In this document: positions 21,838 to 41,490 of the stretch, one piece after another | How the letters are laid out: every line of letters begins with the position of its first letter | Numbering within the stretch: the first letter of the stretch is position 1 | Source: Polyangiaceae bacterium | GTDB taxonomy: Bacteria; Myxococcota_A; Polyangia; Polyangiales; Polyangiaceae | DNA length: 64,000 nucleotides | Direction: 5' to 3' | Assembly (NCBI GenBank): GCA_019637295.1 | Contig: JAHBVX010000006.1 | Location: 1-64,000, forward strand | Notes under the pieces: generated by a model | What the model was told of the DNA's origin: nothing | The model's database searches: none | What the model saw: only the letters and a program-made list of their open reading frames with translations | Made by a program: the position numbers and the translations under genes

Positions 21838-21910
<73 letters not shown>

Positions 21911-21942
21911 GACTTCGTGAAGTGTGGTGCGTGTCTCTCTCT

Positions 21943-22018: not shown

Positions 22019-22059
22019 GTTGTCGACTCGTTGATCCTCTGGGTTCGTGTCCTGGGGTC

Positions 22060-22145: not shown

Positions 22146-22191
22146 GTGAAACCATTGTGGTGTCGTATTCGATACTGTGGATTCGACTCCG

Positions 22192-22267
22192 TGGAGCTGG
22201 CGAAGGGACTTGAACCCCCAACCGCCTGTTTACAAAACAGGTGCTCTACCGATTGAGCTACGCCAGC
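22192..22267 (-). tRNA. tRNA-Thr (TGT)
   Basis: 76-nt gene with encoded CCA. Acceptor GCTGGCG/CGCCAGC, anticodon stem CCTGT/ACAGG with loop TTTGTAA, T-arm TTCAAGT. First gene of the tRNA-tuf-secE-rpoC operon. Confidence 0.95.
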
Positions 22268-24916: not shown

Positions 24917-25468
24917 ATGGAGCGTCTCTTCGAAGAACTCGGCGCGGAGCATCGCCTGATCGCGGCGGTGCTTGGCTCGATGGAGCGGTACCTGGACGCC
25001 GTGGAGCGGGGCGAGGGCCACGACCGGCTGGATCTGTTTCGATTCATCGTGTTCTTGAGCGACTACGCCGACGACATCCACCACGAGAAGGAGGAGCGGG
25101 TGCTGATGAAGGGCATGGCAAAGCACGGGTTTTCCTTGCTCAGCGGCCCCCTCGCCCACGTCAAGGAGCAACACGAGCGCGAGCGCGGCCTGTTCGCGGC
25201 GCTGCACCGCATCGCGGTGGACGGGGGCGACCTGGCCGAGGCGGTCCCGGCCGCTCGGGAGCTGGTCGCCTTCGAACGCGCCCACATGGCCAAGGAGAAC
25301 GAGCTGCTGTATCCCGCGGCCCGGCGAGAGCTCGGGCAGGACGACCCAGCCCCCCTGTTGGCGGCGCTCGATCGGTTCAACGCGGCTCGTGACCGCGACG
25401 GTCACGCGGCGTGGCTCGTGCGCCTGGCCGAGGACCTCACCGGCCGCTACCCGGTGGTGCAGACTTGA
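24917..25468 (+). CDS. Hemerythrin-like (HHE) domain protein
   Basis: 183-aa cytoplasmic four-helix protein. Metal-ligand pattern: H13 in ELGAEHRLI, DIHHEKEERVLM (HxxxE type), HVKEQHERERG, then FERAHMAKENELLYP near residue 120. This ordering fits hemerythrin HHE proteins that bind a di-iron centre and sense or carry O2 or NO. Starts at the ATG at 24917; a TATCCT box ends only 9 nt upstream, suggesting a very short leader. Stands alone between divergent and unrelated genes. Confidence 0.85.
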   Translation: MERLFEELGAEHRLIAAVLGSMERYLDAVERGEGHDRLDLFRFIVFLSDYADDIHHEKEERVLMKGMAKHGFSLLSGPLAHVKEQHERERGLFAALHRIAVDGGDLAEAVPAARELVAFERAHMAKENELLYPAARRELGQDDPAPLLAALDRFNAARDRDGHAAWLVRLAEDLTGRYPVVQT

Positions 25469-25521
25469 AAAGCATCGGCTGACGGCCTCATCATGGCGCG
25501 ATGAGCTCAGCCCAGGGGAAG

Positions 25522-26526
25522 ATGCGGAAGCTGCACGGAACGTTGCTCGGAGCGCTCGCGCTGTCGCTGATCGCGACCAGCTCGCCGGCGCAAGAGCAGA
25601 CGATCACGGACAAGGCGCGCCAGTACTTCCAGGCCGGCGTGAACTACATGCGAGATCCGGACGGCGCGAAGTACGAGGAGGCGTACCGCTCCTTCAAGGC
25701 CGCGTACGCGGAGTCTCCCTCCTGGAAAATCCTGGGCAACCTCGGCATCACGGCGATGAAGCTCGAGCGGGACGGCGAAGCAGCGGAGGCGTTTCGGGGC
25801 TACCTCGCCGGTGGCAAGGACGAGCTCGACGAAGCGGAGAAGGCTCAGGTCGCCCGCGACCTGCAGACCCTGGAGGCGAGCATGGGCAAGCTCGTACTCG
25901 AGGTCTCTCCCGACGGCGCCGTCATCCTCGACGAGCGACTGCCGACCTCCGGGTCGCCGATCTCCAATCGCTACACGCTGCAGGCCGGGCGACTCGAGAT
26001 CGGGCTGCGTGCCGGCCGGCACCGCATTACCGCGCGGCTTCCGGGTCACGACGAGGAGAAGCTCGAGATCGACGTGGCGCCGGGCAGCCAGCTCAGCCAC
26101 AAGCTCACGCTGACGCCCACCAAGTCCGACTCGGGCGCCTCCGGCCCGGTGGGGCCCGTCGCCCCGGGCGTGGAGCCAGCCCAGCGACCCGTGCCAACGA
26201 CGGTCTGGATCGGACTGGCCGCCACGGGCGCGTTCGCCGTCGGCGCCACCGTGACCGGGCTGATGGCGTCGGGAAAGCGCAGCGATTTCGACGCGAAGAA
26301 CAACGGCACTGACCCGGCCGGGGCCGAGCGGCTGCGCGACGACGGCAAGCGGCTGAACCTGATCACCGACGTCTTGCTCGGCGGCGCCGTCGTCGCCGGG
26401 GCCGTCACGGCGGTGCTCTACCTGAACCGTCCCGAGGTCCCGGCAGAGCGGGAGACCGCCGGCCTACGCTTCCGTCCGGCCATCGTGCCCGGAGGTGGGT
26501 CGATGTGGGTGACGGGCGCCTTCTGA
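25522..26526 (+). CDS. PEGA-domain envelope protein with TPR-like N-terminus
   Basis: 334-aa protein: cleavable signal peptide (GALALSLIATSSPAQ), helical segment similar to a tetratricopeptide (KYEEAYRSFKAAYAES), then a PEGA-like beta domain (~120-185) with LVLEVSPDGAVILD and GRHRITARLPGHDEEKLEI. A Pro-rich spacer and two hydrophobic stretches follow (WIGLAATGAFAVGATVTGLM; VLLGGAVVAGAVTAVLYL). This architecture recurs many times per genome in Polyangia and is often near kinases; no biochemical role is known. The ATG at 25501 is an alternative start adding seven residues. Confidence 0.75.
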   Translation: MRKLHGTLLGALALSLIATSSPAQEQTITDKARQYFQAGVNYMRDPDGAKYEEAYRSFKAAYAESPSWKILGNLGITAMKLERDGEAAEAFRGYLAGGKDELDEAEKAQVARDLQTLEASMGKLVLEVSPDGAVILDERLPTSGSPISNRYTLQAGRLEIGLRAGRHRITARLPGHDEEKLEIDVAPGSQLSHKLTLTPTKSDSGASGPVGPVAPGVEPAQRPVPTTVWIGLAATGAFAVGATVTGLMASGKRSDFDAKNNGTDPAGAERLRDDGKRLNLITDVLLGGAVVAGAVTAVLYLNRPEVPAERETAGLRFRPAIVPGGGSMWVTGAF

Positions 26527-26546
26527 GGTGACCCGGCTCGACCGCG

Positions 26547-26575
26547 TTGTCATCGGTCAAGTGCACCGCTAACCT
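26547..26575 (+). promoter_or_regulatory. Promoter of the FN3-cytochrome operon
   Basis: -35 TTGTCA (26547-26552), exactly 17 bp, -10 TAACCT (26570-26575). Predicted start of transcription near 26582, 38 nt upstream of the ATG at 26620, which has an AAGGA ribosome site. Confidence 0.55.
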
Positions 26576-26619
26576 GGCCTAGGCTTGCCGACTGGGCCGG
26601 CGCCGCGGAAGGACCGTCC

Positions 26620-29600
26620 ATGACGTCACGTCGCTTATGGCTTGTTGGGGCAATCTGCGCATTGTTTGCGTTGCGCTGCGGTGGCGATGACCCCACGGGG
26701 GGAAGTGGAGGCGGCGGCGGGGTCATCTCGGATGGGGCTGCGGGCATCGCGGGACAGGCGGGGAGCGGTCCAACTGACACGACCGCGCCGGTGTTCGGTG
26801 GTGTCACGGGGGCGACGTCCGTCGCCGAGCATCAGATCGCGCTGACGTGGTCGGCAGCGACGGACAACGTGACCCCGGCAGCGCAGATCACGTACCGCAT
26901 CTACGCCGCGACGACGAGCAATGGGCACGACTTCACCCAGCCCTGGGCCACCGCCCCCGCCGGCTCCCTCGGCGCCGTCGTCAGCGGCCTCGCCCCCGCG
27001 ACGCAGTACACGTTCGTCGTGCGCGCGGTGGACACCTCGAACAACGAGGACGACAACTCCATCAAGGCCACGGAGCGCACGAAGGACTTCACGGCGCCGA
27101 CGTTCGCCGGCGTTCAGGACGTCGTGGGCCTATCGAAGGACAGCCTGGAGGTCTCGTGGAACCCGGCGACGGACGACGGCACGCCGTCGAGCGGGATCGT
27201 CTACCGCGTGTACGTCGCTGCGACGCAAGCGGGGCAGAACTTCTCCTCGTCGCCGACGGTGACCACCTCGCCCGGCGCGGCGAAAGCCACGATCACCGGG
27301 CTCACGGAGGCCACGCCCTATTTCGTCGTGGTCCGCGCGGTGGACAGCGACGGCAACGCGGACACGAACGTCAAGGAGGTGGGCGGGGAGACCCTCGACG
27401 GCACCGCGCCAGTCTTCGCCGGCGCGACCGGCGCCACGGCCCTCGGCACGGCCATCTCCATCGCCTGGGCGCCGGCGACGGACAACATCGATCCCGAGGC
27501 CTACATCGGCTATCGCATCTATCAGGCCACGACCCCGGGCGGGCAGAACTTCACGACGCCCACCTACACGAGCGCGCTCGGTGCCAGCGCGTTCACCGCG
27601 CTGAACCTGAACGTCTCGACGACGTACTACTACGTGGTGCGGGCGGTGGACTCGACGGGGAACGAAGACACCAACTCCGTCGAGGTCAGCGCCACTACTG
27701 CCGCCTCGCCCGACATCACTCCGCCGGTGTTCGCCGGTTTGGACGCTGCGACCCCGACCAGCGCCACGACGGTGGAGCTGACGTGGGCTCCGGCCAGTGA
27801 CGACTACTCGCAGCCCGCGGACATCGTGTACGACATCTTCACGTCGTCGACCCCCGGCGGACAGGCCTTCTCGACCCCCACGCTCACCACCGCGCCCGGA
27901 CAGACCCAGCACACGCTCACGGGCCTGCTGCCGCTCACGCCAGTCCACGTCGTGGTGCGGGCGCGCGATCAAGCGGGCAACAGCGACACCAACACGGTCC
28001 AGAAGAGCGCCACGCCCTTCCCGGACACCATCGCTCCCACCTTCGGCGGCCTGGTCAGCGTCACTGCGCAAGGCCCCACTGGCCTGTCCTTGAGCTGGAG
28101 CGCGGCGACGGACGACGTGTCGCCCCCCGGCTCCATCGTCTACAAGGTGTATCAGGGCTCGAGCGCCGGCGGCGTGGTCCTGACCACGCCCGTCGTCACG
28201 ACGGCGCCGGGCGCCACCTCCGCCAACGTGAGCGGGCTCGCGGCCGACACCACGTACTACTTCATCGTGCGCGCGGTGGACGAGGCCAGCAACGAGGACT
28301 CGAACACCATCGAGAAGAGCGGCAAGACGGCCCCCGACACCACCGCGCCGACCTTCGGTGGAGCCACCGACGCGACGCCACAGAGCCCGACCAGCATACT
28401 GGTGAGCTGGTCACCCGCGACGGACGACGTCACGCCCTCCGGCAACATCGTCTACGACGTGTATCGGTCCACGACGTCGGGCGGCCAGAACTTCACCACC
28501 CCCACGGCCACGAGCGCGGCGGGCGCGACGAACCTCATGATGACGGGGTTGGCCGCGACGACGACTTACTACTTCGTCGTGCGCGCGCGTGACCAGGCCG
28601 GCAATCGCGACACGAACACCACGCAGGTCAGCGCCACGACCCCGGCAGACACGACCCCGCCGGTGTTCGCCGGGGCGACGAGCGTCTCGGGCGCGACCAA
28701 CACCACGCTCACGGTCAACTGGGCCGCCGCCAACGACAACGTGACGCCTCCGGCCAGCATCAAGTACCGGGTGTGTTGGTCCACCTCCCCCACGGGCTGC
28801 ACCACGTCGTTCAGCGCCATGGCGACGGTGACCGGCGGGACCTCGCACACCGTGACCGGGCTGCCGCCCAACACCAGCTACTACTTCGTGGTTCGAGCCG
28901 AGGATCTGGTGGGCAACGTCGACACGAACACCGTGGTTCGCTCGGGGGCCACGACCCCGGACGTCACCCCACCCACCTTCGCGGGAGCTGCGGCTGCAAA
29001 CGCGCAGAACGCGACGACCATTCAGCTCACCTGGGCGGCCGCGACGGACAACGTGACCCCGGTGGGTAGCATCGTCTACGACGTGTACATGGCTCTGAGC
29101 AGCGGCGGGCAGAACTTCGCCGCGCCGAGCTTCACGACGGCTGCAGGGGCCACGTCGTTCAACGTGACGGCGCTCGCGCCCAACACCCCGTACTTCTTCG
29201 TCGTGCGGGCTCGGGATCAGGCGGGCAATCGCGACTCGAACACCGTGCAGCGCACCACGAGCACGCTGCCGGACACCACGCCGCCCACCTTCGCCGGCGC
29301 CACCAGCGTGACGAACCAGACGGAGACCAGCCTGCGGGTCAACTGGAACGCCGCCACGGACGACACCACGCCCCAGGCCGGCATCGTCTACCTCGTGTGC
29401 TGGTCCACCACCAACGGCGGGTGCAACACGACCTTCACCGCCATGGCCACCACGGCGGCAGGGGCCCTGAACCACACGGCAACCGGACTCAACCCGGCGA
29501 CGACCTACTACTTCGTGGTCCGTGCCCGCGACGCCTTCAACAACACCAGCAGCACCACGACCCAGGTGCAGGGCACTACCGTCGCGGACACGGCGCCGCC

Positions 29601-32145
29601 CACCTTTGCGGGCGCCACCAGCGTGTCGGGCGCGTCGGCCACCACGCTGACGGTCAACTGGGCTCCCGCGACGGACAACGTCACGCCCCAGGCCAGCATC
29701 ATCTACCGCATCTGCCTGACGCAGAGCCCCACGGGCTGCAGCGGGGCGAGCTTCAGCGTCACCCAGAGCCAGACCGGCGGCACCTCGCGCCAGTTCATCG
29801 GGCTGAACCCAACGCAGACCTACTACTTCGTCGTTCGCGCCGAAGACGCCGCGACCAACCGCGACAGCAACAGCGTCGTGGTCTCGGGCGCGACGGTCAA
29901 CGACGTGACTCCGCCGACCTTCGCAGGCCTCACCAGCGCCACGGCGGCGGGCGCCACCAACATCAACCTGCTGTGGACCGCGGCGACCGACAACGTCAGC
30001 ACGCCCGCGCAGATCGTGTACGACATCTGGCGCGCGACCTCGCCGGGCGGTCAGAACTTCGCTGGCGCGCCGCAGTACACGAGCGCGGCGGGCGCGACCA
30101 GCTTCGGCGCCGGGGGGCTGAGTCCGAACACCACGTATTACTTCGTGGCTCGCGCCCGAGACCAGGCAGGCAACCGCGACACGAACACGGTGGAGCGCTT
30201 CGCCACCACCACCGCGGACACCACGCCCCCGACCTTTGCCGGCGCTACCAGCATCAGCGCGCCGACGGCCACCACGCTGACGGTCAACTGGAGTCCCGCG
30301 ACGGACAACGTCACGCCCCAGGGCAGCATCGTGTACGACGTGTGTCGCACGACGGTGAACGGCGGCTGCAGCGGCGGGAGCTTCGTCGTCCATCACACCA
30401 GCGCTGCCGGCGCGACCAGCTTCGTGATTCCGTCCCTCGCGCCCGCGACGCTGTACTACGTCGTCGTGCGCGCGCGGGACCAGGCGAACAACCGCGACGG
30501 CAACAGCGTCCAGGTCACGGGCACGACCACCACCGACACGACGCCGCCCACCTTCGCCGGCGCCACCAGCGTGACCAACAACGCGGTCACGAGCCTGCGG
30601 GTGAACTGGGCTGCGGCGACGGACAACGTCACACCGGCCGGCAGCATGGTCTACGACGTGTGCTGGAGCACCAACAGCACCGGCTGCTCGGGTGGCAGCT
30701 TCAGCACCATGGCCACCTCGGCCGCAGGCGCCGCCTTCTACACGGCGACGGGTCTCTTGCCCACCACGACGTACTACTTCGTGGTGCGCGCGCGGGATCA
30801 GGCGGGCAATTCGGACACCAACAGCGTGGTGCGCAGCGGCGCCACGCTGGCCGACACCACGCCGCCCACCTTCGCCGGCGCCACGAGCGTGAGCGGCGCC
30901 ACCATCACCAGCCTCCAGGTCAACTGGAATCAAGCCACGGACGACACCACCTCCCACGCCAACATGAGCTACTTGGTGTGCTGGAGTACGAACAGCACCA
31001 CGTGTGCGAACAGCTTCAGCGCCATGGCGACCGTGGTCGGCGGACTCAACTACACCGCCGTCAACCTGGTGCCGAACACCACGTACTACTTCGTGGTCCG
31101 TGCCCGTGACGCCTTCAACAACACCGAGACCAACACGGTGGTCCGCAATGGCCCCACGTCCCAGGACTTGACGGCCCCCACCGGGGGGCTCGCCAGCTCC
31201 GTGACCAACGCCACGGTCAGCTCGCTCCGCATCAATTTCACCCAGGCGACGGACAACTACACGCCGCAGGCCAACATCACCTATCGCATCTGCCGGTCCA
31301 CCACCAACGGTGGCTGCAACAGCAGCTTCGTGGTGTGGGCCAGCGTGGTCGGCGCGCCGCTGTACCACACCTTCACGGGCCTCACGCTCAACACGACGTA
31401 CTACTTCGTGGTGCGTGCCGAGGACCAGTTCGGCAATCGCAGCACGAACACCACGCAGGTGTCGGGCGCGACGTTGAACGACACGACGCCACCAGTGTGG
31501 GGGGGCGGCCCGACGGTGACCGCATCTCCCACCGCGGCCGGCGTGCTGAACGCTTCGTGGACGGCGGCCACCGACAACTACTACGCGGCCAGCAGCATCC
31601 GCTACCACCTGTGCTGGAACACGGACTGGACCCAGTGCTGGGACTCCGCCTTCACCTCGATGGCGATAACGGCCTACGGCGCGACCACACGCGCTGTCAC
31701 CGGGCTTGCCAACAACACCTCCTATTACGTCATGGTCCGGGCGCAGGACTTCTCCGGCAACATGGAGACGGGGAACCACTGGGCGATGACCCGAACGCTG
31801 GTGTCCTACTCGCAGCAGATCTGGCCGAACATGTTCAAGAACACGGTCACCTACGGCAGCTGCGGCGCCTGCCACTCCTGGACTCGCGCGAACACGGTGA
31901 ACGTGTCGAGCGGCTACAACGCCGGTGCGGGCTGTGGCGGCACGCTGCTTCTCGTCGAGCCCAACATGCCGCAAGAGAGCTACATCTACCGCAAGATGGT
32001 CAGCTACGGGAACACGAGCTCGCCCTTCAGCGGGGGCTGCCCCAACTACTACAGCGGCGTGCAGATGCCGCAGGGCGGCCCCTACAACGGCACCAACATC
32101 ACCTTGATGCGCCAGTGGATCGTGGACGGCGCGCCCAACAACTGA
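26620..32145 (+). CDS. Giant surface lipoprotein: 16 fibronectin-III repeats plus a C-terminal c-type cytochrome-like domain
   Basis: 1,841 aa. The N-terminus ends FALRC (atypical lipobox, Arg at -1), then a Gly-rich spacer. Sixteen FN3 modules of ~105 aa follow (about residues 52-1725), each opening with a D.TPPTFAGA-type motif and ending YYFVVRA.D..GN.D.N. Half of them (7, 9, 10, 12-16) carry a CX7C pair (for example CWSTSPTGC), all in the distal part. The C-terminal ~110 residues hold C1748-G-A-C1751-H1752, a downstream MPQGG that could supply an axial Met, and end WIVDGAPNN like c-type cytochrome domains. It is the first gene of an operon with another FN3-cytochrome and a pentahaem cytochrome. 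Likely a long rod displaying a redox tip; function inferred. Confidence 0.8.
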   Translation: MTSRRLWLVGAICALFALRCGGDDPTGGSGGGGGVISDGAAGIAGQAGSGPTDTTAPVFGGVTGATSVAEHQIALTWSAATDNVTPAAQITYRIYAATTSNGHDFTQPWATAPAGSLGAVVSGLAPATQYTFVVRAVDTSNNEDDNSIKATERTKDFTAPTFAGVQDVVGLSKDSLEVSWNPATDDGTPSSGIVYRVYVAATQAGQNFSSSPTVTTSPGAAKATITGLTEATPYFVVVRAVDSDGNADTNVKEVGGETLDGTAPVFAGATGATALGTAISIAWAPATDNIDPEAYIGYRIYQATTPGGQNFTTPTYTSALGASAFTALNLNVSTTYYYVVRAVDSTGNEDTNSVEVSATTAASPDITPPVFAGLDAATPTSATTVELTWAPASDDYSQPADIVYDIFTSSTPGGQAFSTPTLTTAPGQTQHTLTGLLPLTPVHVVVRARDQAGNSDTNTVQKSATPFPDTIAPTFGGLVSVTAQGPTGLSLSWSAATDDVSPPGSIVYKVYQGSSAGGVVLTTPVVTTAPGATSANVSGLAADTTYYFIVRAVDEASNEDSNTIEKSGKTAPDTTAPTFGGATDATPQSPTSILVSWSPATDDVTPSGNIVYDVYRSTTSGGQNFTTPTATSAAGATNLMMTGLAATTTYYFVVRARDQAGNRDTNTTQVSATTPADTTPPVFAGATSVSGATNTTLTVNWAAANDNVTPPASIKYRVCWSTSPTGCTTSFSAMATVTGGTSHTVTGLPPNTSYYFVVRAEDLVGNVDTNTVVRSGATTPDVTPPTFAGAAAANAQNATTIQLTWAAATDNVTPVGSIVYDVYMALSSGGQNFAAPSFTTAAGATSFNVTALAPNTPYFFVVRARDQAGNRDSNTVQRTTSTLPDTTPPTFAGATSVTNQTETSLRVNWNAATDDTTPQAGIVYLVCWSTTNGGCNTTFTAMATTAAGALNHTATGLNPATTYYFVVRARDAFNNTSSTTTQVQGTTVADTAPPTFAGATSVSGASATTLTVNWAPATDNVTPQASIIYRICLTQSPTGCSGASFSVTQSQTGGTSRQFIGLNPTQTYYFVVRAEDAATNRDSNSVVVSGATVNDVTPPTFAGLTSATAAGATNINLLWTAATDNVSTPAQIVYDIWRATSPGGQNFAGAPQYTSAAGATSFGAGGLSPNTTYYFVARARDQAGNRDTNTVERFATTTADTTPPTFAGATSISAPTATTLTVNWSPATDNVTPQGSIVYDVCRTTVNGGCSGGSFVVHHTSAAGATSFVIPSLAPATLYYVVVRARDQANNRDGNSVQVTGTTTTDTTPPTFAGATSVTNNAVTSLRVNWAAATDNVTPAGSMVYDVCWSTNSTGCSGGSFSTMATSAAGAAFYTATGLLPTTTYYFVVRARDQAGNSDTNSVVRSGATLADTTPPTFAGATSVSGATITSLQVNWNQATDDTTSHANMSYLVCWSTNSTTCANSFSAMATVVGGLNYTAVNLVPNTTYYFVVRARDAFNNTETNTVVRNGPTSQDLTAPTGGLASSVTNATVSSLRINFTQATDNYTPQANITYRICRSTTNGGCNSSFVVWASVVGAPLYHTFTGLTLNTTYYFVVRAEDQFGNRSTNTTQVSGATLNDTTPPVWGGGPTVTASPTAAGVLNASWTAATDNYYAASSIRYHLCWNTDWTQCWDSAFTSMAITAYGATTRAVTGLANNTSYYVMVRAQDFSGNMETGNHWAMTRTLVSYSQQIWPNMFKNTVTYGSCGACHSWTRANTVNVSSGYNAGAGCGGTLLLVEPNMPQESYIYRKMVSYGNTSSPFSGGCPNYYSGVQMPQGGPYNGTNITLMRQWIVDGAPNN
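26770..31800 (+). repeat. Tandem array of 16 FN3-coding units (~315 bp each)
   Basis: Imperfect direct repeats, most alike between repeats 7 and 15, where blocks such as CGCCGCCCACCTTCGCCGG recur at each module start. The high similarity makes the array prone to unequal recombination and to assembly collapse. Confidence 0.85.
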
Positions 32146-32170
32146 GCCTCTCGAAAGACAGGAAACTTCA

Positions 32171-33961
32171 ATGCGACTCGACAACTCCTTCCTTTGGCTC
32201 TCGTGCGCCGTGGCCGCGGCGCTGGCTTCGGCGAGCTGCGGCGGGGATGACCTGACCTGTGGCTCGGGCACCAAGCAGAGCGGCGACAAGTGCATCGCGT
32301 CGACCCCGGGCACCGGCGGGCAGGCCGGCGCTGCGGGCAGCGGTGGTACGGGCGGCGGCGGTACCGGTGGCACCGGCGGCGCGGTCAGCAGCGCGCCCAC
32401 CTTCGATGGGGTCAAGGCGGTGGCTCCCGTCTCCACCGCGAGCTTGCTCGCCGTTTGGGACCCGGCCTCGGACGCGACCACGATCCCGGAAGAGATCGTG
32501 TACAACGTGTACGTCGCGTCGAGCTCGGGGCAGTTCAATTTCGCGACGCCGCACCAGGTGTCCCCCCCGGGAGCCACGAGCCTGGAGCTCACGACCTTGG
32601 CGCCAGGCAACGACTACTACGTCGTCGTGCGCGCCGTGAACAAGGCCGGCACGGAGGACGACAACTCCAAGGAGCTCAGCGCCAAGACTCAGGCCGACAC
32701 GGCCGCGCCGACCTTCGGCGGGGTGAAGGACGCCAAGCCCGCGGGTGGCGGCGCGGTGGAGTTGTCGTGGGACGCCGCGAGCGACGACCTCACGCCGGCG
32801 GCAGCGATCGTCTACCAGGCCTACTGGGCCAGCGCCTCCGGCGGACAGAGCTTCGTGTTTCCAGCGGGGAGTAGCGCGCCCGGAGCCACCAGCATGGTCG
32901 TGAGCGGACTGCCCGCGCCCGACTCGACGTTCTTCTTCGTGGTGCGGGCGCGCGACGCCGCCGGGAACGTGGACGACAACGACAAGGAGGTCAGCGGCAA
33001 GACCGGCCTGGACACCTCGCCACCCTTGTTCAGCGGCTGCACCGCCGCGACGACCACGGGTGCGTCGACCGTCGACGTGACGTGGAATCCACCCAAGGAC
33101 GACGTGACGCCAGTCGCGGACATCGAGGTCAATGTCTACGCCTTCAAGACCCCCAAGCCCAAGGAGAGCGACTTCGGTTTGCCCGCGGGCACGTTCACGG
33201 GCGCGACTCACGGCGAGGTTCAAGGACTCGAGGCGAGCACGACCTACTACTTCGTGTGCCGCGCGGAGGACGCCTCGGGCAACGAGGACAAGAACCTGGG
33301 CGAGCGCAGCGCCAAGACGCTGGACGACGGCACACCACCGGTGTTCGCGGGGGTGACGGGTATCAAGAACGTCACCGGCAGCAGCGTCGAGCTCGAGTGG
33401 GCAGCCGCCACGGACGACAAATCCCCCGCCAGCGCCATCGTGTACGACGTGTACCAAGCGACGAGCCCTGGCGGTCAGAACTACGCCAATGCGCCGGCAG
33501 CTAGCTCCGCGGCGGGAGCGACGAGCGTGGTGGTGACTGGGCTCTCGCCACGCACGCACTACTACTTCGTGGTGCGAGCGCGGGACCAGGCGGGCAATCG
33601 AGACTCGAACACCGTCGACGTCGACGCAACCACACTGGTCAGCTTCTTCCTCAACGTGGAGCAGCCCATCTTCCAGGCCAAGTGCGCCCTCAGCGGCTGC
33701 CACACGGGTGGCACCCCCGCCGGCGGGTTGAACCTGTCGGCCGGTTTCGGCTATTTCAACCTGGTCAACGTCCAGGCTGCGGGCTCCCAGCTCATGCGCG
33801 TCAAGCCCGGCGAGCCCAACAACAGCTACCTCAACCTCAAGGTCCTGGGCACCGGCATCGCTGGTGAGATGATGCCGCCCCCCTCGACCAACGATTTCCT
33901 GACTCAGGATCAGAAGGACACGATCAAGGAGTGGATCGAGCAGGGCGCTCCCAACAACTGA
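32171..33961 (+). CDS. FN3-repeat lipoprotein with C-terminal CX4CH cytochrome-like domain
   Basis: 596-aa paralogue of the giant protein upstream, 25 nt after it. Signal peptide to ASASC (lipobox), a short Cys-containing segment (CGSGTKQSGDKC), a Gly/Thr spacer, then five FN3 modules marked by APTFDGV, APTFGGV, SPPLFSGC, TPPVFAGV and their YVVVRA/YFVVRARD ends. The C-terminal ~105 residues have C505-ALSG-C510-H511, a CX4CH spacing rather than CxxCH, then EMMPPPS as a possible Met ligand and a WIEQGAPNN end nearly identical to its neighbour. Whether haem is attached at a CX4CH site needs testing. Probably outer-membrane anchored. Confidence 0.8.
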   Translation: MRLDNSFLWLSCAVAAALASASCGGDDLTCGSGTKQSGDKCIASTPGTGGQAGAAGSGGTGGGGTGGTGGAVSSAPTFDGVKAVAPVSTASLLAVWDPASDATTIPEEIVYNVYVASSSGQFNFATPHQVSPPGATSLELTTLAPGNDYYVVVRAVNKAGTEDDNSKELSAKTQADTAAPTFGGVKDAKPAGGGAVELSWDAASDDLTPAAAIVYQAYWASASGGQSFVFPAGSSAPGATSMVVSGLPAPDSTFFFVVRARDAAGNVDDNDKEVSGKTGLDTSPPLFSGCTAATTTGASTVDVTWNPPKDDVTPVADIEVNVYAFKTPKPKESDFGLPAGTFTGATHGEVQGLEASTTYYFVCRAEDASGNEDKNLGERSAKTLDDGTPPVFAGVTGIKNVTGSSVELEWAAATDDKSPASAIVYDVYQATSPGGQNYANAPAASSAAGATSVVVTGLSPRTHYYFVVRARDQAGNRDSNTVDVDATTLVSFFLNVEQPIFQAKCALSGCHTGGTPAGGLNLSAGFGYFNLVNVQAAGSQLMRVKPGEPNNSYLNLKVLGTGIAGEMMPPPSTNDFLTQDQKDTIKEWIEQGAPNN

Positions 33962-33979
33962 CGCTTCGCAGAAGGAACC

Positions 33980-35353
33980 ATGAGAGCACTTCACATCCTT
34001 GGCGCGCTTGCCTTTGGGGTCGTCGGCTGCAGCGTCATCAACGCCTTCGATGACGTGGCGCCGGGCAACGACGCGAGCGCGACCGGTGGCACGGGAGCCG
34101 CCAGCGGTGGCACGGGAGGTACAGGCGCGGCGGCAGGCAGCGCGGGCTCCGGCGGCGGCGCCGGGGGTTCCGACGCGGCGGCAGGCGGCGGCGCGGCGGG
34201 CGGGGGAGGCTCCGGCGGCACCACCGCTCAGCCGGGCGCCATCGTGCTCGGAGCCCGCGTCGCCAACACGGGGCCTCCGCAGAAGGAGGTTCTCGTCGCG
34301 CTCTCTCCGCACGACGGCAGCGAGCTGGTGCGCGAGGACGTGCCCCAGGCCGTCACCGGGCTCGCCCACGAGGGCGTTCCGGGTCGCGACTTCTGGTACG
34401 TGCTCCGGCGCACCGAGGCGCCGCCGTCCCAGAAGACGGAGCTGAGCATTCGTCGGCTCAATCGCAGCACCACTCCCGCGACCTGGGACGTACTCGACAC
34501 CCTCGAGGTCCCGCCGGTGTTCGACGAGAAGGGCATCGCCGTGCTCAATCGTCGACTGGTGTACCTGGCGAACGTGCAGGGCGACGCCGGCGTGAGCACC
34601 GCGCTGGTGGCCATAGACACCTCGGACGAGACGAACCTCGTGCTGCTCCCGCCGCTGATCGTCTCGGACGAGTTCCGCGGGTTGATCGGGCATCCGAGCA
34701 CCACCCAGGCGGGCGGCATCCTGAGCCTGATCCGCTTCCAGGGCGCCGGACAGGTGAGCATCGGCGTACAGAAGGCTGCCGTCCCGACCACGGGCGCGCC
34801 CCAGATGGTGGAGAACAACCCGACCAACGTGGGCGGCTTCCTGTTCCCGAGCACATCCCCCGCCTGGGGCGCGAACAACGTGGAGAACTTCGACGTGATC
34901 GTGCTGCCACCGGTGGTGACCGATGCGGGTGTCGGTTCGGCGCAACTTCGTCAGTTCAACTCTTCGAACCACGCGCCGACGAGCACCCAGCCCTTCGATG
35001 TAGGCGGAGGCAACTTCCGCCAGCTCGCTTTCGACAGCTGCCGCAAGCTGGCCATCACCGTGCTGCTCAACCAAGACAACAGCATCCGCGTGGTGCCCGT
35101 CAGCAGCGGGACGGAGGCGAAGCTCTCGCTCAACGAGTCGGCGCAGCGGGTCTTCTATGAGCCCTACACCCAGACGGCGCTGGCGCCGTTCCAGGGCACC
35201 AACTCGCAGATCCGAGCGTTTTCCGTGGGTGGCACCGGTCAAGCGCCGACCATCACCGCCAAGTCCCTCAACGCTCCGGCGGACCTCATCCCCTCCGGCC
35301 CGATGGCTGTCGAGGCTCCGCTCAACGCCCAATACAAGCCCGTATGCAACTGA
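33980..35353 (+). CDS. Surface lipoprotein, possibly beta-propeller, of the FN3-cytochrome operon
   Basis: 457 aa. Signal peptide to VVGC (Cys17), a long Gly/Ala/Ser/Thr spacer (~30-90), then a beta-rich domain with repeated short strands (KEVLVALSPHDGSELVRED, RRLVYLANVQGDAG, LVAIDTSDET). These look like irregular propeller blades of the kind used in extracellular scaffolds; this reading is tentative. It has no haem motif and few cysteines. It starts 18 nt after the 596-aa gene, and its stop overlaps the cytochrome gene start by 10 nt (ATGCAACTGA), so co-translation with the pentahaem protein is likely. Confidence 0.7.
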   Translation: MRALHILGALAFGVVGCSVINAFDDVAPGNDASATGGTGAASGGTGGTGAAAGSAGSGGGAGGSDAAAGGGAAGGGGSGGTTAQPGAIVLGARVANTGPPQKEVLVALSPHDGSELVREDVPQAVTGLAHEGVPGRDFWYVLRRTEAPPSQKTELSIRRLNRSTTPATWDVLDTLEVPPVFDEKGIAVLNRRLVYLANVQGDAGVSTALVAIDTSDETNLVLLPPLIVSDEFRGLIGHPSTTQAGGILSLIRFQGAGQVSIGVQKAAVPTTGAPQMVENNPTNVGGFLFPSTSPAWGANNVENFDVIVLPPVVTDAGVGSAQLRQFNSSNHAPTSTQPFDVGGGNFRQLAFDSCRKLAITVLLNQDNSIRVVPVSSGTEAKLSLNESAQRVFYEPYTQTALAPFQGTNSQIRAFSVGGTGQAPTITAKSLNAPADLIPSGPMAVEAPLNAQYKPVCN

Positions 35354-37239
35354 CGCTCCGGCGCGCGCTGTGCTTTCTGTTGGTGTCGGCGCTGCCCTTC
35401 GGCGCGCACGCGTCCGATCCCTTCGGACTCCTGGGCACGGGTCCGGGGGAGCTCGACGACAACGTCGCGACCACGCCCGTGCAAGCCGCGACGTTCTGCG
35501 CGACCTGTCACGGCAGCGACGAGAACTTCGGACCGAAGACCGCGTCCGACCACCTGCCCTTCGACACCTGGGCCGGGACCATGATGGCCAACTCGGCGCG
35601 GGATCCGTTGTTCTTGGCGGCGCTCACCGTCGCCAATCAAGACGTGCCCGGCATTGGTACCTTCTGCCTGCGCTGTCACACGCCCGCCGCGTTCGTGCGC
35701 GGGCACGCCGCGCCGGACGGGTCCGGCTTGCTCGATGGCGTGGACAAGGAGGGCGTGAGCTGCGACGTGTGCCACCGCGCGGCGGATGACAAGGCCCTCG
35801 ACCCGGGCGCACCCTACATCGGCAACGGACAGCTCGTGTGGGAGACCCAGAACATCAAGCGGGGCCCGTACTCGGACTCACAGAGCCCGCTGCACGGCAC
35901 GGTGCAGAGCAGCTACACCGGGAGCTCCGAGCTGTGCGGCGCGTGTCACGAGGTGAGCAACCCCACGCGCAACATCGTCAGCGAGCTCGGTCAGGACCTC
36001 GGCGTGCCCTTCCCCCTCGATACCACCTACTCCGAGTGGAAGAACTCGAGCTTCTCGGGCGGAGGCAAGGGCTGCATCGACTGTCACCTGTCGCGACACG
36101 ACAAAGACGAGCCCGTCTGCCGGCTCTCGGGTCAGCCCGCCCGCCCCAAGCCAAGAACCCACGTTTTTGCTGGCGGAAACCTGTGGGGGCTCGACGCGGT
36201 GATGGCGGCGGATCCGCCCTACGCCAGCGCTCACGCCGAGTCCTTCGCCCGCGTGAAGGCGGCGACGCAGAAGCTGCTCGAGCAGTCCGTCACCGTCGAG
36301 ATCACCTCCCTCGCCGCGACCGCGACGGCCGGCGGAGTGGTCAACCTCGAGGCGCGCGTCACGAACAAGGCCGGTCACAAGTTCCCAACCGGGTACGCCG
36401 ACAGCCGGCGGGCGTTCGTGACCGTCTCGTGGACGACGTCGAGCCCGGGTGGCCCGGAGACGGTCGTGGTGGGCGACTACGACACGACCACCGGCGACAT
36501 CCAGGCGTCCCCCCCCACCCGGGTGTACGAAGCCATCCACGCTCAGCGAAAGACGGACGGAACACTGGTCCATGATCGCTTGGCGCTGCACAACTTCATC
36601 GAGCGGGATACGCGCATTCCACCCGAGGGCTTCGTCGCCACACTGGCCACCAAACCCCTCGGCTCGATCAACTACTCGAACGGGCAAGGTGGCTACAATC
36701 ACTGGGACGACGCGTCGCTCAGCGTGCCGGTGCCCTCATCCCTGTCGGGCTTCAACAAGTTGGTCGTGCGCGTTCGCTATCAGAGCGTGACCAAGAGCCA
36801 CGTCAGCGCGCTGGTCAGCGCGAACACGACCGACCAGCGCGGCACGAAGCTCGCGCAGGTCTACGAAGCTACCTCGGAAGGTCCCCCCATCACCGTCGCC
36901 GAGGCCAGCGCGCTGGTCGAGGTGCAGAACATCGTCGACGCGGGCGCCGACGGAAGCGACGGCAGCTCCCCCGACGCCGGCCCCACCGCGGACGCGGGTC
37001 CCAAGCCAAAGCCACCCGCCGACGACGGCGGGTGCGGCTGCCGCGCGGCGCGAGACGGCGGCAGCAGCTACGCCGCGCTCGGAGTGTGGCTCGGGTTGGC
37101 GCTCGGTCTGCGCCGTCGACGCAGGGGTAAGACCGCAAAAGAACACGTATTCTCGGAGAGGACCGGCGTCCGGTTGCCACCGGCTCGGCCGCGCTTCTCG
37201 GGGCGTGTTAGCCTTTCGCCTTCCGGAGAGCCGTCGTGA
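35344..37239 (+). CDS. Pentahaem c-type cytochrome with MYXO-CTERM-like anchor
   Basis: 631 aa. Signal peptide (LCFLLVSALPFGAHA), then five CxxCH sites: C52/C55, C108/C111, C140/C143, C198/C201, C244/C247. A beta-sandwich segment contains NKAGHKFPTGYADSRR (~340-355), seen in cytochrome c554-like multihaem proteins. An Asp/Pro/Ala-rich linker leads to GCGC (563-566), a membrane helix (AALGVWLGLALGL) and five arginines (589-593), the MYXO-CTERM arrangement. Unusually, 38 residues follow the Arg cluster where such proteins normally end; a 1-nt shift would give a stop (TAA) right after it. Extracytoplasmic electron transfer is probable. Overlaps the kinase start (GTGA). Confidence 0.85.
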   Translation: MQLTLRRALCFLLVSALPFGAHASDPFGLLGTGPGELDDNVATTPVQAATFCATCHGSDENFGPKTASDHLPFDTWAGTMMANSARDPLFLAALTVANQDVPGIGTFCLRCHTPAAFVRGHAAPDGSGLLDGVDKEGVSCDVCHRAADDKALDPGAPYIGNGQLVWETQNIKRGPYSDSQSPLHGTVQSSYTGSSELCGACHEVSNPTRNIVSELGQDLGVPFPLDTTYSEWKNSSFSGGGKGCIDCHLSRHDKDEPVCRLSGQPARPKPRTHVFAGGNLWGLDAVMAADPPYASAHAESFARVKAATQKLLEQSVTVEITSLAATATAGGVVNLEARVTNKAGHKFPTGYADSRRAFVTVSWTTSSPGGPETVVVGDYDTTTGDIQASPPTRVYEAIHAQRKTDGTLVHDRLALHNFIERDTRIPPEGFVATLATKPLGSINYSNGQGGYNHWDDASLSVPVPSSLSGFNKLVVRVRYQSVTKSHVSALVSANTTDQRGTKLAQVYEATSEGPPITVAEASALVEVQNIVDAGADGSDGSSPDAGPTADAGPKPKPPADDGGCGCRAARDGGSSYAALGVWLGLALGLRRRRRGKTAKEHVFSERTGVRLPPARPRFSGRVSLSPSGEPS

Positions 37240-38777
37240 GCGAGGAGCAGCCACCGCAGTCGTCCATCAGCCCGCCACCTCCGGACGAGGTGATCGATGG
37301 CAAGTACCGCATCGTCCGGCTGATTGGCGAGGGCGGCATGGGGGCAGTCTTCGAGGGCGAGAACGTGCGCATCCGCCGCCGCGTGGCGATCAAGGTGCTG
37401 CACGCGGGGATCGCCTCCAATGACCAAGCAGTGATGCGCTTCGAGCGTGAAGCGCAGGCTGCGGGTCGCATCGGCTCGGAGCACATCGTGGAGGTGCTCG
37501 ACCTCGGCAACCTGCCGAACGGCGAGCGCTTCATGGTGATGGAGTTCCTCGAGGGCGAGAGCCTGAGCGATCGCATCGCGAAGCGCGGCCGCTTGGCCGC
37601 GACGGAGGCCTACTACCTCGGGCGGCAGGTGCTCGAGGGGCTAGGCGCCGCGCACGCCGCCGAGATCATCCACCGGGATCTGAAGCCGGACAACGTCTTC
37701 TTGCTCAAGAGCCGGGCGGGCCAGCAAGACTTCGTCAAGCTCCTCGACTTCGGCATTTCCAAATTTTCCGCGCTGTCCGGGGACAGCAACTTCAGCATGA
37801 CCAGTACGGGCGCTGTGATGGGCACGCCGTACTACATGTCGCCGGAGCAGGCCAAGGGCGGGAAGAACCTCGACAACCGCGCGGACCTGTACTCCGTCGG
37901 CGTGATCCTGTTCGAGTGCGTCACCGGCCGCGTGCCCTTCCAGGCCGAGACGTTCAACGAGCTGATGTTCAAGATCGTGCTCGAAGAAGCGCCCGCCGCG
38001 ATCTCGCTCGCGCCGGACCTCGAGCCCGCGTTCAGCGCGCTGATCGCCAAGTCCATGGCGCGCAACCGCGAGGAGCGCTTCCAGTCGGCTCGGGAGTTCC
38101 AGGAAGCGCTCGACGAGTGGGCCGCGGCGAGCGGTGTCGCCGTCAACCAGCGGCCCACCTACGTGGGCGGGCCCGCGGATCCGCGGGTGGCCGGGCTCTC
38201 CCAGTCGGGCTCTGGAGTGCACAACCTGCCGCAACAGGCCGTTGCCGCAGCCGCCCCGGAGACCCGGCCCGGCACCCTGAACGGCAGCGCGTCCTGGGCG
38301 AACACCCAGGGCGACGCGCCGCGGTCGCGACCCATGGGTCTCATCATCGGCGCGGCCGTAGGCGGACTGGTGGTCTTCGGCGCGATCGCCGCCGTCGCCG
38401 TCAAGCTGAGCGGCGGGTCGGCGGCCGCAGCGCCGAGCCCCGACGTCAGCCAGACCGCAGCGCCCGTCCCCGAGCCGGCGGAGACGCCCGCGCCAACCGA
38501 GACCGCGGCGCCGCCGCCGAGCGCAACGCCCGCCGAGACCGCAGCGCCCACCGAGACCGCAGCGCCCACCGAGACCGCAGCGCCCACCGAGACCGCAGCG
38601 CCCACCGAGACCGCAGCCGCGCCCAAGCCCACCTCCGCGCCGAAGGTCGCGGGGGTCAAGGCCACCGCCAAGCCCACCGCCACCGCGGCGCCCACCGCGA
38701 CGGCCAAACCCGACAAACCGCCGACCGCGCCGACCGGCACGTCGACCGGCGGACGCGTCATTCGCGACACGCTATAG
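37236..38777 (+). CDS. Transmembrane Ser/Thr protein kinase coupled to the cytochrome operon
   Basis: 513 aa from a GTG that overlaps the cytochrome stop. Kinase domain ~23-290: glycine loop IGEGGMGAVFEG, VAIKVL lysine, catalytic loop HRDLKPDNVF, DFG in LLDFGISKF, and GTPYYMSPEQ before the APE-like segment; all catalytic residues are present. A linker leads to one membrane helix (~368-390, GLIIGAAVGGLVVFGAIAAVAV) and an outer tail built of TETAAP repeats and Lys/Thr/Pro, without a sensor fold. The outer tail could contact peptidoglycan or the neighbouring surface proteins. Its stop abuts that of convergent trmB (CTATAG). Confidence 0.9.
   Translation: MSEEQPPQSSISPPPPDEVIDGKYRIVRLIGEGGMGAVFEGENVRIRRRVAIKVLHAGIASNDQAVMRFEREAQAAGRIGSEHIVEVLDLGNLPNGERFMVMEFLEGESLSDRIAKRGRLAATEAYYLGRQVLEGLGAAHAAEIIHRDLKPDNVFLLKSRAGQQDFVKLLDFGISKFSALSGDSNFSMTSTGAVMGTPYYMSPEQAKGGKNLDNRADLYSVGVILFECVTGRVPFQAETFNELMFKIVLEEAPAAISLAPDLEPAFSALIAKSMARNREERFQSAREFQEALDEWAAASGVAVNQRPTYVGGPADPRVAGLSQSGSGVHNLPQQAVAAAAPETRPGTLNGSASWANTQGDAPRSRPMGLIIGAAVGGLVVFGAIAAVAVKLSGGSAAAAPSPDVSQTAAPVPEPAETPAPTETAAPPPSATPAETAAPTETAAPTETAAPTETAAPTETAAAPKPTSAPKVAGVKATAKPTATAAPTATAKPDKPPTAPTGTSTGGRVIRDTL
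38532..38618 (+). repeat. 18-bp tandem repeat (TETAAP codons), ~4.8 copies
   Basis: Near-perfect direct repeats of ACCGAGACCGCAGCGCCC within the outer tail of the kinase gene. Likely length-variable between strains. Confidence 0.85.
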
Positions 38778-39380
38778 GCGCCGATAGCGCAGCCGCTGGA
38801 CGGGGAGCCCATCCGCGATCGCGCGCCGCTCGCGCGGGCTGCGCGCGACGTAGGGGTGATCGCCGACGCGCGCTCGAGTCTCCCACGGCACGAACGCGGG
38901 AGCACGAGCAACCGTGGCCTCGTAGGCGTCGGCGCGATGCTCCACGTCAGTCTGTATGAACAACTCGCCCCCGGGCGCGATCACTCGAGCGAGCTCTGCG
39001 ACCAACGCGTCGGTGACGACCAAGCGCTTGGCATGGCGCTTCTTCCACCACGGGTCAGGAAAATGGACGAAGGCGAGCGCTATGGAGCTCGAGCGCAAGC
39101 GCGGCAGCGCCGAGCGGGCGTCTTCGGCGAAGCAGCGGGCTCGCTCTCCATACCCGCGCTTGCGCAGCCGTTCGTCGACGATCGTCGCCCACTTGCGGCG
39201 GACCTCCAGACCGATGATGCCCCGCTCCGGTAGGGCCTCCGCGCGCTCGACCAGGAACCAACCCCGTCCGGGACCGATCTCGAGATCGATCGGCCCCTCA
39301 CCTACGCGAAGGAGGGAGCGCGGGTCGATCGCCTCCGACTCCGGCAAGCGCGGGGCATGTGCGTAGACGTCGTTTCTCAT
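38772..39380 (-). CDS. trmB: tRNA (guanine-N7-)-methyltransferase
   Basis: 202-aa SAM-dependent enzyme that makes m7G46 in tRNA. SAM-binding motif LEIGPGRGWFLVERA, then FVHFPDPWWKKRHAKRLV, the diagnostic TrmB block, and GGELFIQTDVEHRADAY. The start at 39380 (MRNDVYAHAPRLPE) gives the usual short N-terminus; two upstream ATG codons only add low-complexity residues. Convergent with the kinase gene, stops abutting. Confidence 0.92.
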   Translation of the reverse strand: MRNDVYAHAPRLPESEAIDPRSLLRVGEGPIDLEIGPGRGWFLVERAEALPERGIIGLEVRRKWATIVDERLRKRGYGERARCFAEDARSALPRLRSSSIALAFVHFPDPWWKKRHAKRLVVTDALVAELARVIAPGGELFIQTDVEHRADAYEATVARAPAFVPWETRARVGDHPYVARSPRERRAIADGLPVQRLRYRRL

Positions 39381-39483
39381 CGGGGTCGAGGCGGAGCGCG
39401 ACGAGGCTACCCGAGCCGCGCGCATTGTTCCATGCTCGCGCACGTTGACTGAGACGACCTCCGCTCAGGACGTGCGACAGCGC

Positions 39484-41490
39484 ATGCCCTCCCTCGAAGT
39501 GCTGGGCACCGGCGCGCTCGCGGCGGTCACCGTGGTGCTCGCGGTCGTCAGCACGCGCGCCATCTTGGCGGCGACGAACGGCGAGCCGGCGGTGCCGCTC
39601 GACGACACCTACATCCACTTCCAGTTCGCGCGCGGCATCGCGACCCTCACGCCGCTGGTCTACTCCCCCGGGGATCCGGCGGTGGCGGGCGCGACCAGCC
39701 TGCTGTGGCCGGCGCTGCTCGCACCCTTCTGGGCGCTCGGGCTCCGAGGCAGCCTCCTGGTTTGGCCCGCGTGGCTGTTCGGCTGGCTCGCGCTCTTCGG
39801 TCTGGCGCTCGAGACCTGGCGTCTCGGCCGGGGCTTGCTGTCCGGCGGGGTCGCCTACGGGGCGGGGCTCGGCGTGCTCTGCTTCGGGGGGCTCGTGTGG
39901 TGCGCGGGCAGCGGGATGGAGGTCGTGCCCTTCGCCTGGCTCTTGGTGCGCACCGCGCGCGCCGCGGCAGAGCACTACGACAGACGGCAGAGCAGCGCGA
40001 CCGCGCGCGAGCTCTGGCTGCTGCTCACGCTCGGTCTCTTGTGTCCGCTGGGCCGGCCCGAGGGGGTGCTCGGCTCGCTGATGGTGATGCTGACGTTGTC
40101 GCTCGCACCGCGAGGTCGGCCGCGAGCGCTGTCGCTGATTCCGCTTGCCGGGCCGGTGCTGCTACCCCTCATCCAGTGGTCCCTCACCGGCGACGCAGCG
40201 AGCACGACCTCGATCGTGAAGTGGCTACCAGTGAACCCGTATCAGGCCGGAGGTCGGGTGTTGCAGTCGATCGGGCACAACCTGCACGTGCTCGTGCACA
40301 CTCTACTCGACGGACGCGTGTGGAGCGCCGTCTTCATCCCCAGCGGAGGCAAGCTCGTCGCCTGGCTCGCGCCCATCGCGCTCGTCGCGCTCGCCTACCG
40401 GCGCCGACAGGTCCATCGCGGCGCGCTAGTGCTGCTCATCGCCGTGGGCATCTTGCTGCCCACGACCTACGACAGCTTCCTCTGGAACCGGCTGCGCTAC
40501 TTGTGGCCCTTCGCCCCCGGCTGGCTGATCGCACTCGGCGCGCTCGCCGATGCCCTCGGCGAGGCCCTCGGTCGGCTGCGGCCCGAGCTCCGGCCCGCGC
40601 GCTTGCTGGCGTGCGGCGGCGTGCTCGGGGCGCTGGCCAGTCATTGGTCTTGGACCATCGACGATCTGGCCACGAGCGCGGGCGGCATTCACGCGCAGCA
40701 GGTTTCCCTCGGACGCTGGGCGAAGCAAGAGCTGCCAACAGCTGCGCGCATCGGCGTGAACGACACCGGCGCCATCGCCTACTTCTCGGAGCGACGCACC
40801 TTCGACGTGGTGGGGCTCACGACCGCCAGCGAAGCGCGCTACTGGGTGGCTGGCACCGGCTCGCGCTTCGAGCACTACGAACGGCTGCCTGAGAGCGCGC
40901 TGCCCTCTCACTTCATCGTCTATCCAGCCTGGATGGGGGCGCCCGTGCTGCTCGGCGAACACCTGACTGAGCGAACGGTAACCGGCGCCACCATCTTGGG
41001 CGGAACGACCATGGCCGCGCACCGCGCCCGCTGGGACGCGCTTCGTTCGGCCGAGCTTCCCGCGGAGTCGAGACCTGGAGCGCACCTCCTCGACTCGCTG
41101 GACGTGGCGGATCTCGAGAGCGAGGCTGCGCACGACTACCAACTGCTGGACGCTCGGCAGACGGACAATCAGCTGTTTGGCGATCCTTGGACCAAGCCGC
41201 TGCGCGCCGACGGCGGTCGCGCCCGCAGAGCCCGCGAGCAGTTCCGTCTGGACCTCACGCCCTCCGGCGAGCTCGTGCTGCGCGTCAGCTGCGAAGCGCG
41301 GGTCACGCTCGCCCTACGCGCAGGGGAGCACGAGCTCGGCCGGGTCACCTGTGAGCCCGTCCATCCCTGGACCGAACCTCGCCTGCGCCTGCCGCCGACC
41401 CTTCCCCGCGGTCCCCAGTCGGTGGCCGTGACGGCCGAGGGGGGCACGTTCGCGGCTCTTCACTACTGGGTGTTCGACGGCGCGCCGTAG
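39484..41490 (+). CDS. Polytopic membrane protein, GT-C glycosyltransferase-like
   Basis: About 668 aa. Around ten membrane helices fill the N-terminal ~400 residues. The first external loop carries PLDDTYIHFQFARG, an acidic motif placed like the catalytic Asp of dolichyl/undecaprenyl-phosphate sugar transferases, and is followed by TSLLWPALLAPFWAL. The C-terminal ~250 residues form a soluble beta-rich domain. Substrate unknown; it may modify surface glycans or proteins. The start is uncertain: the ATG at 39484 is chosen, but a TTG at 39445 would add 13 residues. It stands divergent to trmB. Confidence 0.65.
   Translation: MPSLEVLGTGALAAVTVVLAVVSTRAILAATNGEPAVPLDDTYIHFQFARGIATLTPLVYSPGDPAVAGATSLLWPALLAPFWALGLRGSLLVWPAWLFGWLALFGLALETWRLGRGLLSGGVAYGAGLGVLCFGGLVWCAGSGMEVVPFAWLLVRTARAAAEHYDRRQSSATARELWLLLTLGLLCPLGRPEGVLGSLMVMLTLSLAPRGRPRALSLIPLAGPVLLPLIQWSLTGDAASTTSIVKWLPVNPYQAGGRVLQSIGHNLHVLVHTLLDGRVWSAVFIPSGGKLVAWLAPIALVALAYRRRQVHRGALVLLIAVGILLPTTYDSFLWNRLRYLWPFAPGWLIALGALADALGEALGRLRPELRPARLLACGGVLGALASHWSWTIDDLATSAGGIHAQQVSLGRWAKQELPTAARIGVNDTGAIAYFSERRTFDVVGLTTASEARYWVAGTGSRFEHYERLPESALPSHFIVYPAWMGAPVLLGEHLTERTVTGATILGGTTMAAHRARWDALRSAELPAESRPGAHLLDSLDVADLESEAAHDYQLLDARQTDNQLFGDPWTKPLRADGGRARRAREQFRLDLTPSGELVLRVSCEARVTLALRAGEHELGRVTCEPVHPWTEPRLRLPPTLPRGPQSVAVTAEGGTFAALHYWVFDGAP

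Follow-up and report, generated by a model that had tools for sequence, protein, structure and literature searches.

Six co-directional genes at positions 25501-38777 (+ strand) of a 64,000-nucleotide stretch of DNA from a Polyangiaceae bacterium (GenBank assembly GCA_019637295.1, contig JAHBVX010000006.1, positions 1 to 64,000 of the forward strand; hereafter the window) may encode an envelope redox module, in which mono-haem arms would exchange electrons with an interchangeable haem enzyme and would be coupled to a protein kinase. We prefer this reading tentatively, placing it a little short of an even balance. The genes, in the order P0006, A, B, C, D and E, specify a TPR/PEGA-like membrane protein, two rods of tandem FN3 domains that each end in a cytochrome c domain, a haem-free lipoprotein, a pentahaem cytochrome and a membrane Ser/Thr kinase. 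The original prediction, made from the DNA alone, had described genes A to E as an operon behind one promoter and had read it as a surface conduit or a site of contact-dependent electron exchange, with the kinase as a regulator; our analysis partly confirmed the observation and partly supported the interpretation. The features of the locus are the following.

25501..26526, +, gene P0006, TPR/PEGA-like membrane protein, 341 amino acids (weak TPR and CarboxypepD_reg matches; signal peptide by eye)
26620..32145, +, gene A, FN3-rod protein with a C-terminal cytochrome c domain, 1841 amino acids
26788..31797, +, FN3 array of A, 16 tandem domains with a period of 103-106 amino acids (hidden Markov model (HMM) of the A repeats; 15 stretches with Pfam fn3)
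31798..32142, +, haem domain of A (CXXCH motif, CGACH, at 31861-31875; candidate distal Met, in MP, at 32065-32070)
32171..33961, +, gene B, lipoprotein, 596 amino acids, four FN3 domains and a C-terminal cytochrome c domain
33683..33703, +, CX4CH haem motif (CALSGCH) of B (Met-Pro at about 33872-33877)
33980..35353, +, gene C, haem-free lipoprotein, 457 amino acids, predicted beta-propeller
35344..37239, +, gene D, pentahaem cytochrome c, 631 amino acids (haem motifs at 35497, 35665, 35761, 35935 and 36073)
37024..37125, +, MYXO-CTERM sorting tail of D (GCGC, hydrophobic stretch, Arg cluster; TIGR03901)
37236..38777, +, gene E, membrane Ser/Thr kinase, 513 amino acids (GTG start, GGAG upstream)
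38748..38774, +, C-terminal peptide of kinase E, GGRVIRDTL

In the C-terminal domain of B, the Cys, Cys and His of the haem motif, the Met-Pro pair and a Trp-Ile pair were invariant in all 12 aligned proteins, an alignment that left out B of genome G030, which has CX3CH, and B of G128, where the contig ends within the gene. Few other residues of this C-terminus are invariant, and by sequence B is predicted to be a c-type cytochrome with His/Met ligation, since the CXnCH motif and the distal Met are both conserved. The haem domain of A is homologous to that of B (hhalign 99.6%, E 9.7e-24), and the motifs predict covalent haem on both proteins. At the distal ligand position, A has Met-Pro in three of seven proteins (window, G062 and G003) and Glu-Pro in the other four (G007, G008, G028 and G128). 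The haem motif was found by pattern in six of the seven A proteins; the exception, A of G003, has five residues between its Cys and was omitted from alignment A7. Two residues separate the Cys in five of the seven A proteins, four in the 12 B proteins and in A of G062, and three in B of G030; the attachment motif thus ranges from CX2CH to CX5CH inside one haem domain family. The most unusual spacings are located at L089:1650-3446 (CX3CH, B of G030) and L087:4481-7288 (five residues, A of G003).

The haem domain also occurs detached from the rest of B, with 10 matches in 9 of 79 genomes that span only about residues 485-596 of the query. FoxE is an Fe(II)-oxidising cytochrome. Its sequence (PDB 5mab) is the solved one nearest to the B haem profile (E 2.9e-6), which matches two stretches of it, and hydrazine synthase alpha is next (E 5.7e-6); B differs from FoxE in having one haem, with CX4CH spacing, on four FN3 domains, and as A and B carry one haem motif each, neither has the two haem domains expected of a FoxE. 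The likeness to PSCyt1 (PF07635) is weak: the window B domain scored 20.2 bits, under the cut-off of 22, and five of 12 B domains matched at E 0.5 or better.

Two FN3 lipoproteins with cytochrome-like ends had been predicted, and both the FN3 domains (16 in A and four in B) and the haem motifs were recovered; the lipobox of window A, however, is atypical in that an Arg precedes the Cys (ALRC), and A is likely but not certainly a lipoprotein. The lipoboxes of A in G007 and G028 look canonical. As also predicted, A and B both end in GAPNN, which closes the last helix of the haem-domain family (W-I-x-x-G-A) and is common to the relatives and largely to FoxE. We considered GAPNN as a separate sorting signal and rejected the idea because the residues belong to that helix. 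With the HMM of A repeats, the number of FN3 domains in A was 16 in the window, 10 in G062, 7 in G003 and 5 each in G007, G028 and G128, and 5 were counted on the open frame of A in G008. The same HMM gave a constant four in all 13 B proteins counted. Pfam detects fewer FN3 domains, with 15 stretches in window A and 3 in window B. Protein L100 of G034 (13 FN3 domains) lies at a contig end, has an ABC-transporter-like end stretch and no readable haem domain, and was excluded from the haem comparison. The FN3 rods would serve as cytochrome stalks, of constant length in B and variable length in A.

We followed the locus through related genomes with a profile of B, which at E 1e-60 matched 14 of 183 genomes of the order, 13 of these in the window's family. 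In a phylum-wide draw of 377 genomes 10 matched B, and the three of these outside the order did so only partly. Counts of loci given here include the window. C adjoins B in 12 of 14 loci, the exceptions being G030 and G128 (where the contig ends in B); a kinase lies within the fetched stretch around B in 10 of 14, and relatives of P0006 lie at most about 10 kb from B in 8 of 14 and further away on the same contig in G128. Contigs end near B in G003, G030, G034, G036, G128 and G144, and absences there are weak. The genes of the relatives were called by a codon-usage finder that shortens some N-termini, making lipoboxes and overlaps there indicative only. The conserved co-occurrence sought for the five genes was partly borne out in that B, C, the kinase, the TPR protein and A recur, though the exact five-gene set was found in none of the 13 relatives, several of them on short contigs. 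We rejected the exact five-gene operon as the unit, since D is found in 2 of 14 loci (window and G036) and A shares a contig with B in 7, while the TPR gene lies within about 10 kb in 8.

Within the window, the five tightly spaced, co-directional genes at 26620-38777 are as originally described, with gaps of 25 bp (A-B) and 18 bp (B-C), and the last three are linked by start/stop overlaps of 10 bp (C-D) and 4 bp (D-E). P0006 precedes A by 93 bp, counted from the ATG at 26620. The single promoter placed before the five genes did not hold: when 25300-39500 was scanned for sigma-70 promoters, the sole promoter-like site lay at 25465-25494, ahead of P0006 (shuffled sequences averaged 0.6), and none lay directly before A, the scan covering sigma-70-type promoters only. 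P0006 is a recurrent neighbour of B and part of the gene set. It has two hydrophobic segments, judged by eye. In 8 of 13 relatives the genome-wide best match to P0006 falls within the B locus or at least on the contig of B; in the remaining five (G003, G007, G030, G034 and G036) it is on another contig. As 20 kb is about 0.25% of an 8-Mb genome, the proximity of P0006 to B is far beyond chance. G030 has a PEGA protein (PF08308, 56.7 bits) in place of a P0006 relative.

The kinase domain of E scored 151.9 bits against PF00069, with the catalytic motifs HRDLKPDN and DFG, and it is followed by a hydrophobic segment near residue 368 (hydropathy window) and an Ala/Pro/Thr-rich tail. The membrane Ser/Thr kinase originally proposed is thus upheld, its activity being predicted. 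ARAGORN calls a tRNA-Asp (atc) at 38351-38444 (+), within the Ala/Pro/Thr-rich tail of the kinase gene; this call is probably spurious. A tree built from 33 kinases joins E with the kinases from the loci of G036, G008 and G028 at 95/53, the second value being weak, and this group together with G138, G144 (a partial protein) and one of the genome's own paralogues is supported at 100/97. We rejected the orthology of all adjacent kinases, six of ten falling in one clade which also holds that paralogue. An end like GGRVIRDTL was found in the locus kinases of the window, G028, G008 and G138 and not in those of G036, G030 and G062 (4 of 7 readable tails); it was present in none of 21 kinase ORFs (open reading frames) from 20 stretches with own paralogues. 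For G038 and G127 the kinase genes were called short, at 297 and 320 amino acids, and hydropathy showed no membrane segment in either.

The suggestion that the kinase regulates the system stood in so far as a kinase is linked to it; the kinase looks more than appended, however, as kinase or TPR genes overlap cytochrome or propeller genes in several genomes. Overlaps of 4 bp join B to the kinase and the kinase to the PEGA gene in G030, the PEGA gene to the kinase in G138, and D to E in the window, and C overlaps the P0006 relative by 10 bp in G038 and G127. The TPR gene and the kinase are on the opposite strand in G008, G062 and G144, and are still nearby.

Lipoprotein C has no haem motif in its sequence, as had been noted, and no Pfam match. 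Its structure model is of high confidence from residue 82 on and is all-beta, with 28 strands (residues 82-450), which fits seven blades of four; C is accordingly predicted by the model to be a propeller. Its structure matches include 3u4y (Z 26.7), methylamine dehydrogenase heavy chain (26.1), YncE (about 24) and BtuG-type surface lipoproteins. C shares the propeller fold with these at 8-13% identity, and the fold alone gives no function. An analogy with methylamine dehydrogenase (the C propeller, a MauG-family enzyme and a cytochrome) was rejected: the likeness is of fold only, other propellers score alike, and the enzyme is nearer to peroxidases and has no match in the window genome at E 1e-25. 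G028 encodes, between C and the kinase, a Cys-rich GSG-repeat lipoprotein (L085:12118-13203, +) with no Pfam match and a C-like start (GCSFVNAFDDV); of two successive C alignments, only the first included it.

D is the pentahaem cytochrome with an outer-surface sorting tail that had been described. It contains five CXXCH motifs. All 11 D proteins compared keep the Cys and His of these motifs, along with three other His; the first haem motif in L096 is CX3CH. The tail scored 21.6 bits against TIGR03901 (MYXO-CTERM), with a cut-off of 20. D continues for 37 residues past this match (37126-37236), overlapping the kinase start, and six of ten aligned relatives stop near the Arg cluster. D of G036 is 54% identical to window D and keeps GCGC but not the rest of the MYXO-CTERM tail. 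MYXO-CTERM proteins of Myxococcus are reported to be cleaved by myxosortase and surface-anchored (PMC11980579). The model of D has a mean pLDDT (predicted local distance difference test score) of 67, is poor at residues 110-173 and is of low confidence in parts of the haem region. Its best fold match is the pentahaem c552 of Thermochromatium tepidum (5ze8; Foldseek E 6.6e-10; VIA-align Z 19.0, root-mean-square deviation 3.5, 327 aligned, 20% identity), the next match having a Z of 9.9. With five haem motifs and the same overall predicted fold, D can be placed with pentahaem c552, although D alone carries a MYXO-CTERM tail. Part of its haem region weakly matches ExtKL/MccSep (NF040886; 9wt8) at E 8.8e-5, but its 31.5 bits are far under the family cut-off of 250, and no porin partner was seen in the locus. 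Sixteen genomes have a D match at E 1e-50 or better; D is beside B only in the window and G036, and elsewhere adjoins a GSDH protein (L091) or an Fe-S protein (L093). The protein adjoining B in G036 (L084:7869-9362, -) has repeated CDGxDNDCxG motifs and, by eye, an SCGC MYXO-CTERM-like tail.

Other loci have other haem enzymes. A di-haem cytochrome c peroxidase of the PF03150 (MauG) family adjoins A in G007, G008, G028 and G128 (4 of 14 loci). Three of the four were scanned and scored 102-108 bits against PF03150 (cut-off 25.6), and all four have two CXXCH motifs. The best PDB matches of the G028 peroxidase are cytochrome c peroxidases, to which it is closer than to MauG. A loss of the Met ligand from these peroxidases was considered and dropped, since an alignment with 9qdt and one of the four proteins show a conserved Met further on. 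The G144 locus has a di-haem cytochrome (PF00034), and G138 has a more distant peroxidase on a contig other than that of B. D and a peroxidase were never found together in one locus, and the window genome had no match to the peroxidase at E 1e-25.

In the envelope redox module that we propose, A and B would be rods with a lipid anchor, each keeping its mono-haem cytochrome c domain at a distance from the membrane. Electrons would move, in either direction, between these haem domains and a haem enzyme that depends on the lineage: four genomes have the di-haem cytochrome c peroxidase, the window and G036 have D, and G144 has the di-haem cytochrome. The propeller lipoprotein C may act as a constant docking or substrate-binding partner, and the kinase and the TPR/PEGA-like protein would couple the module to the cytoplasm, either with the outer tail of the kinase reading the state of the module or through control of its production. 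The analysis shows the gene content, its recurrence around B, the ligand residues, the FN3 counts and the folds as predicted; from these we infer the covalent haem, the surface display of A to C, the electron transfer, the docking and the signalling. The locus swaps its haem enzyme but keeps much of the remaining set, which a kinase-linked module fits better than a classical conduit. A differs in its ligand (Glu-Pro) and its length (five FN3 domains) exactly in the four genomes with a peroxidase, supporting a working link between A and the peroxidase.

Several observations weigh against the module. A is on the B contig in only half of the loci, and 7 of 14 loci have no peroxidase, D or di-haem cytochrome beside B, several of those contigs ending nearby. 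G007 has neither a kinase nor P0006 near B on a long contig, and the same-genus genome G001 is without B and matches the haem domain only. The contrast between Glu and Met in A is drawn from seven sequences, of which two share a genus. Among the ten adjacent kinases, the four in G030, G062, G038 and G127 fall in other kinase families, and with 78 kinases matched at E 1e-40 in the window genome, some of the kinase adjacency may be chance.

The haem of A and B might instead serve as an antenna for the kinase, sensing redox state, peroxide or gas without carrying electron traffic, while the TPR protein relays a signal from the rod-propeller assembly to the kinase. We consider this rather unlikely, though worth real weight. 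C, the kinase and the TPR protein are the most recurrent partners of B, the enzymes differ between loci or are absent, the distal Met is lacking in four of the seven A domains, which could leave a free site, and the similar tail peptide in four of seven readable locus kinases is absent from all 21 kinase ORFs in the 20 own stretches. The Met kept in 12 of 12 B proteins, on the other hand, is typical of electron carriers rather than ligand sensors, and four loci have kinases that are not orthologues of E, two of which (G038 and G127) are short with no membrane segment seen. A role in peroxide defence appears distinctly improbable. Here A and B would be tethered electron donors of the di-haem peroxidase, and D would do a comparable reduction where the peroxidase is missing. 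The PF03150 scores of three peroxidases (102 to 108 bits) and the cytochrome c peroxidases found as best PDB matches of one of the four agree with it, as does the statement that the usual electron donors of bacterial peroxidases are mono-haem cytochromes (PMC10599522). The peroxidase is present in only 4 of 14 loci, however; the neighbouring A lacks the Met in all four, which is odd for a donor, although B could still serve; and nothing ties D to peroxidases.

FN3 domains are common in adhesion proteins. A and B could be mainly cell-surface adhesins or length spacers with an incidental haem domain, as the variation of A from 5 to 16 FN3 domains and that frequency would allow, but we give this only a slight chance, as few residues of the B C-terminus are invariant and these include the haem ligands, and as haem enzymes adjoin the rods in 7 of 14 loci. 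An extracellular electron conduit or contact-dependent exchange, as originally proposed, is suggested by the haem-tipped rods, the pentahaem protein with its surface-sorting tail and the FoxE-related haem domain, and the surface cytochromes recall the Mtr/Pcc porin-cytochrome conduits (PMC4245776). The locus differs from those conduits in its mono-haem tips and linked kinase. A conduit requires a porin that crosses the outer membrane, and a scan limited to 15 window proteins from the locus and its surroundings detected neither a porin nor a quinol enzyme of the inner membrane. With no porin seen in the locus a conduit is unlikely, only two of the 14 loci include D, and a single haem at the tip of a rod of up to 16 FN3 domains presumably cannot carry current along it. 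We therefore regard a conduit as very unlikely, and contact-dependent electron exchange was not supported.

Elsewhere in the window, an EF-Tu gene at 20246-22267 (-) has a tRNA-Trp on one side and tRNA-Thr, Gly, Tyr and Thr on the other, a usual bacterial arrangement, and two adjoining ORFs of 1419 and 1377 amino acids at 8028-16445 (-) probably encode the beta subunits of RNA polymerase, to judge from their lengths and arrangement.

Each part of the locus belongs to a known kind, and the combination appears new in the literature searched: no paper on FN3-cytochrome lipoproteins linked to a kinase was found among the literature matches listed, subscription journals being mostly outside the search. 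A more specific possibility, which we put forward as doubtful, is that the kinase senses redox conditions beyond the cytoplasm by way of cytochromes that are lipid-anchored and carried on FN3 rods whose length is particular to each lineage. Lineages would then keep this sensing arm and exchange the haem enzyme that it monitors (peroxidase, pentahaem protein or another), the loss of the distal Met in A accompanying the peroxidase. To our knowledge, what most such myxobacterial kinases sense is unknown. A locus in which a kinase repeatedly accompanies envelope rods tipped with haem, along with an exchangeable haem enzyme, offers a concrete and testable candidate for redox input to such a kinase.

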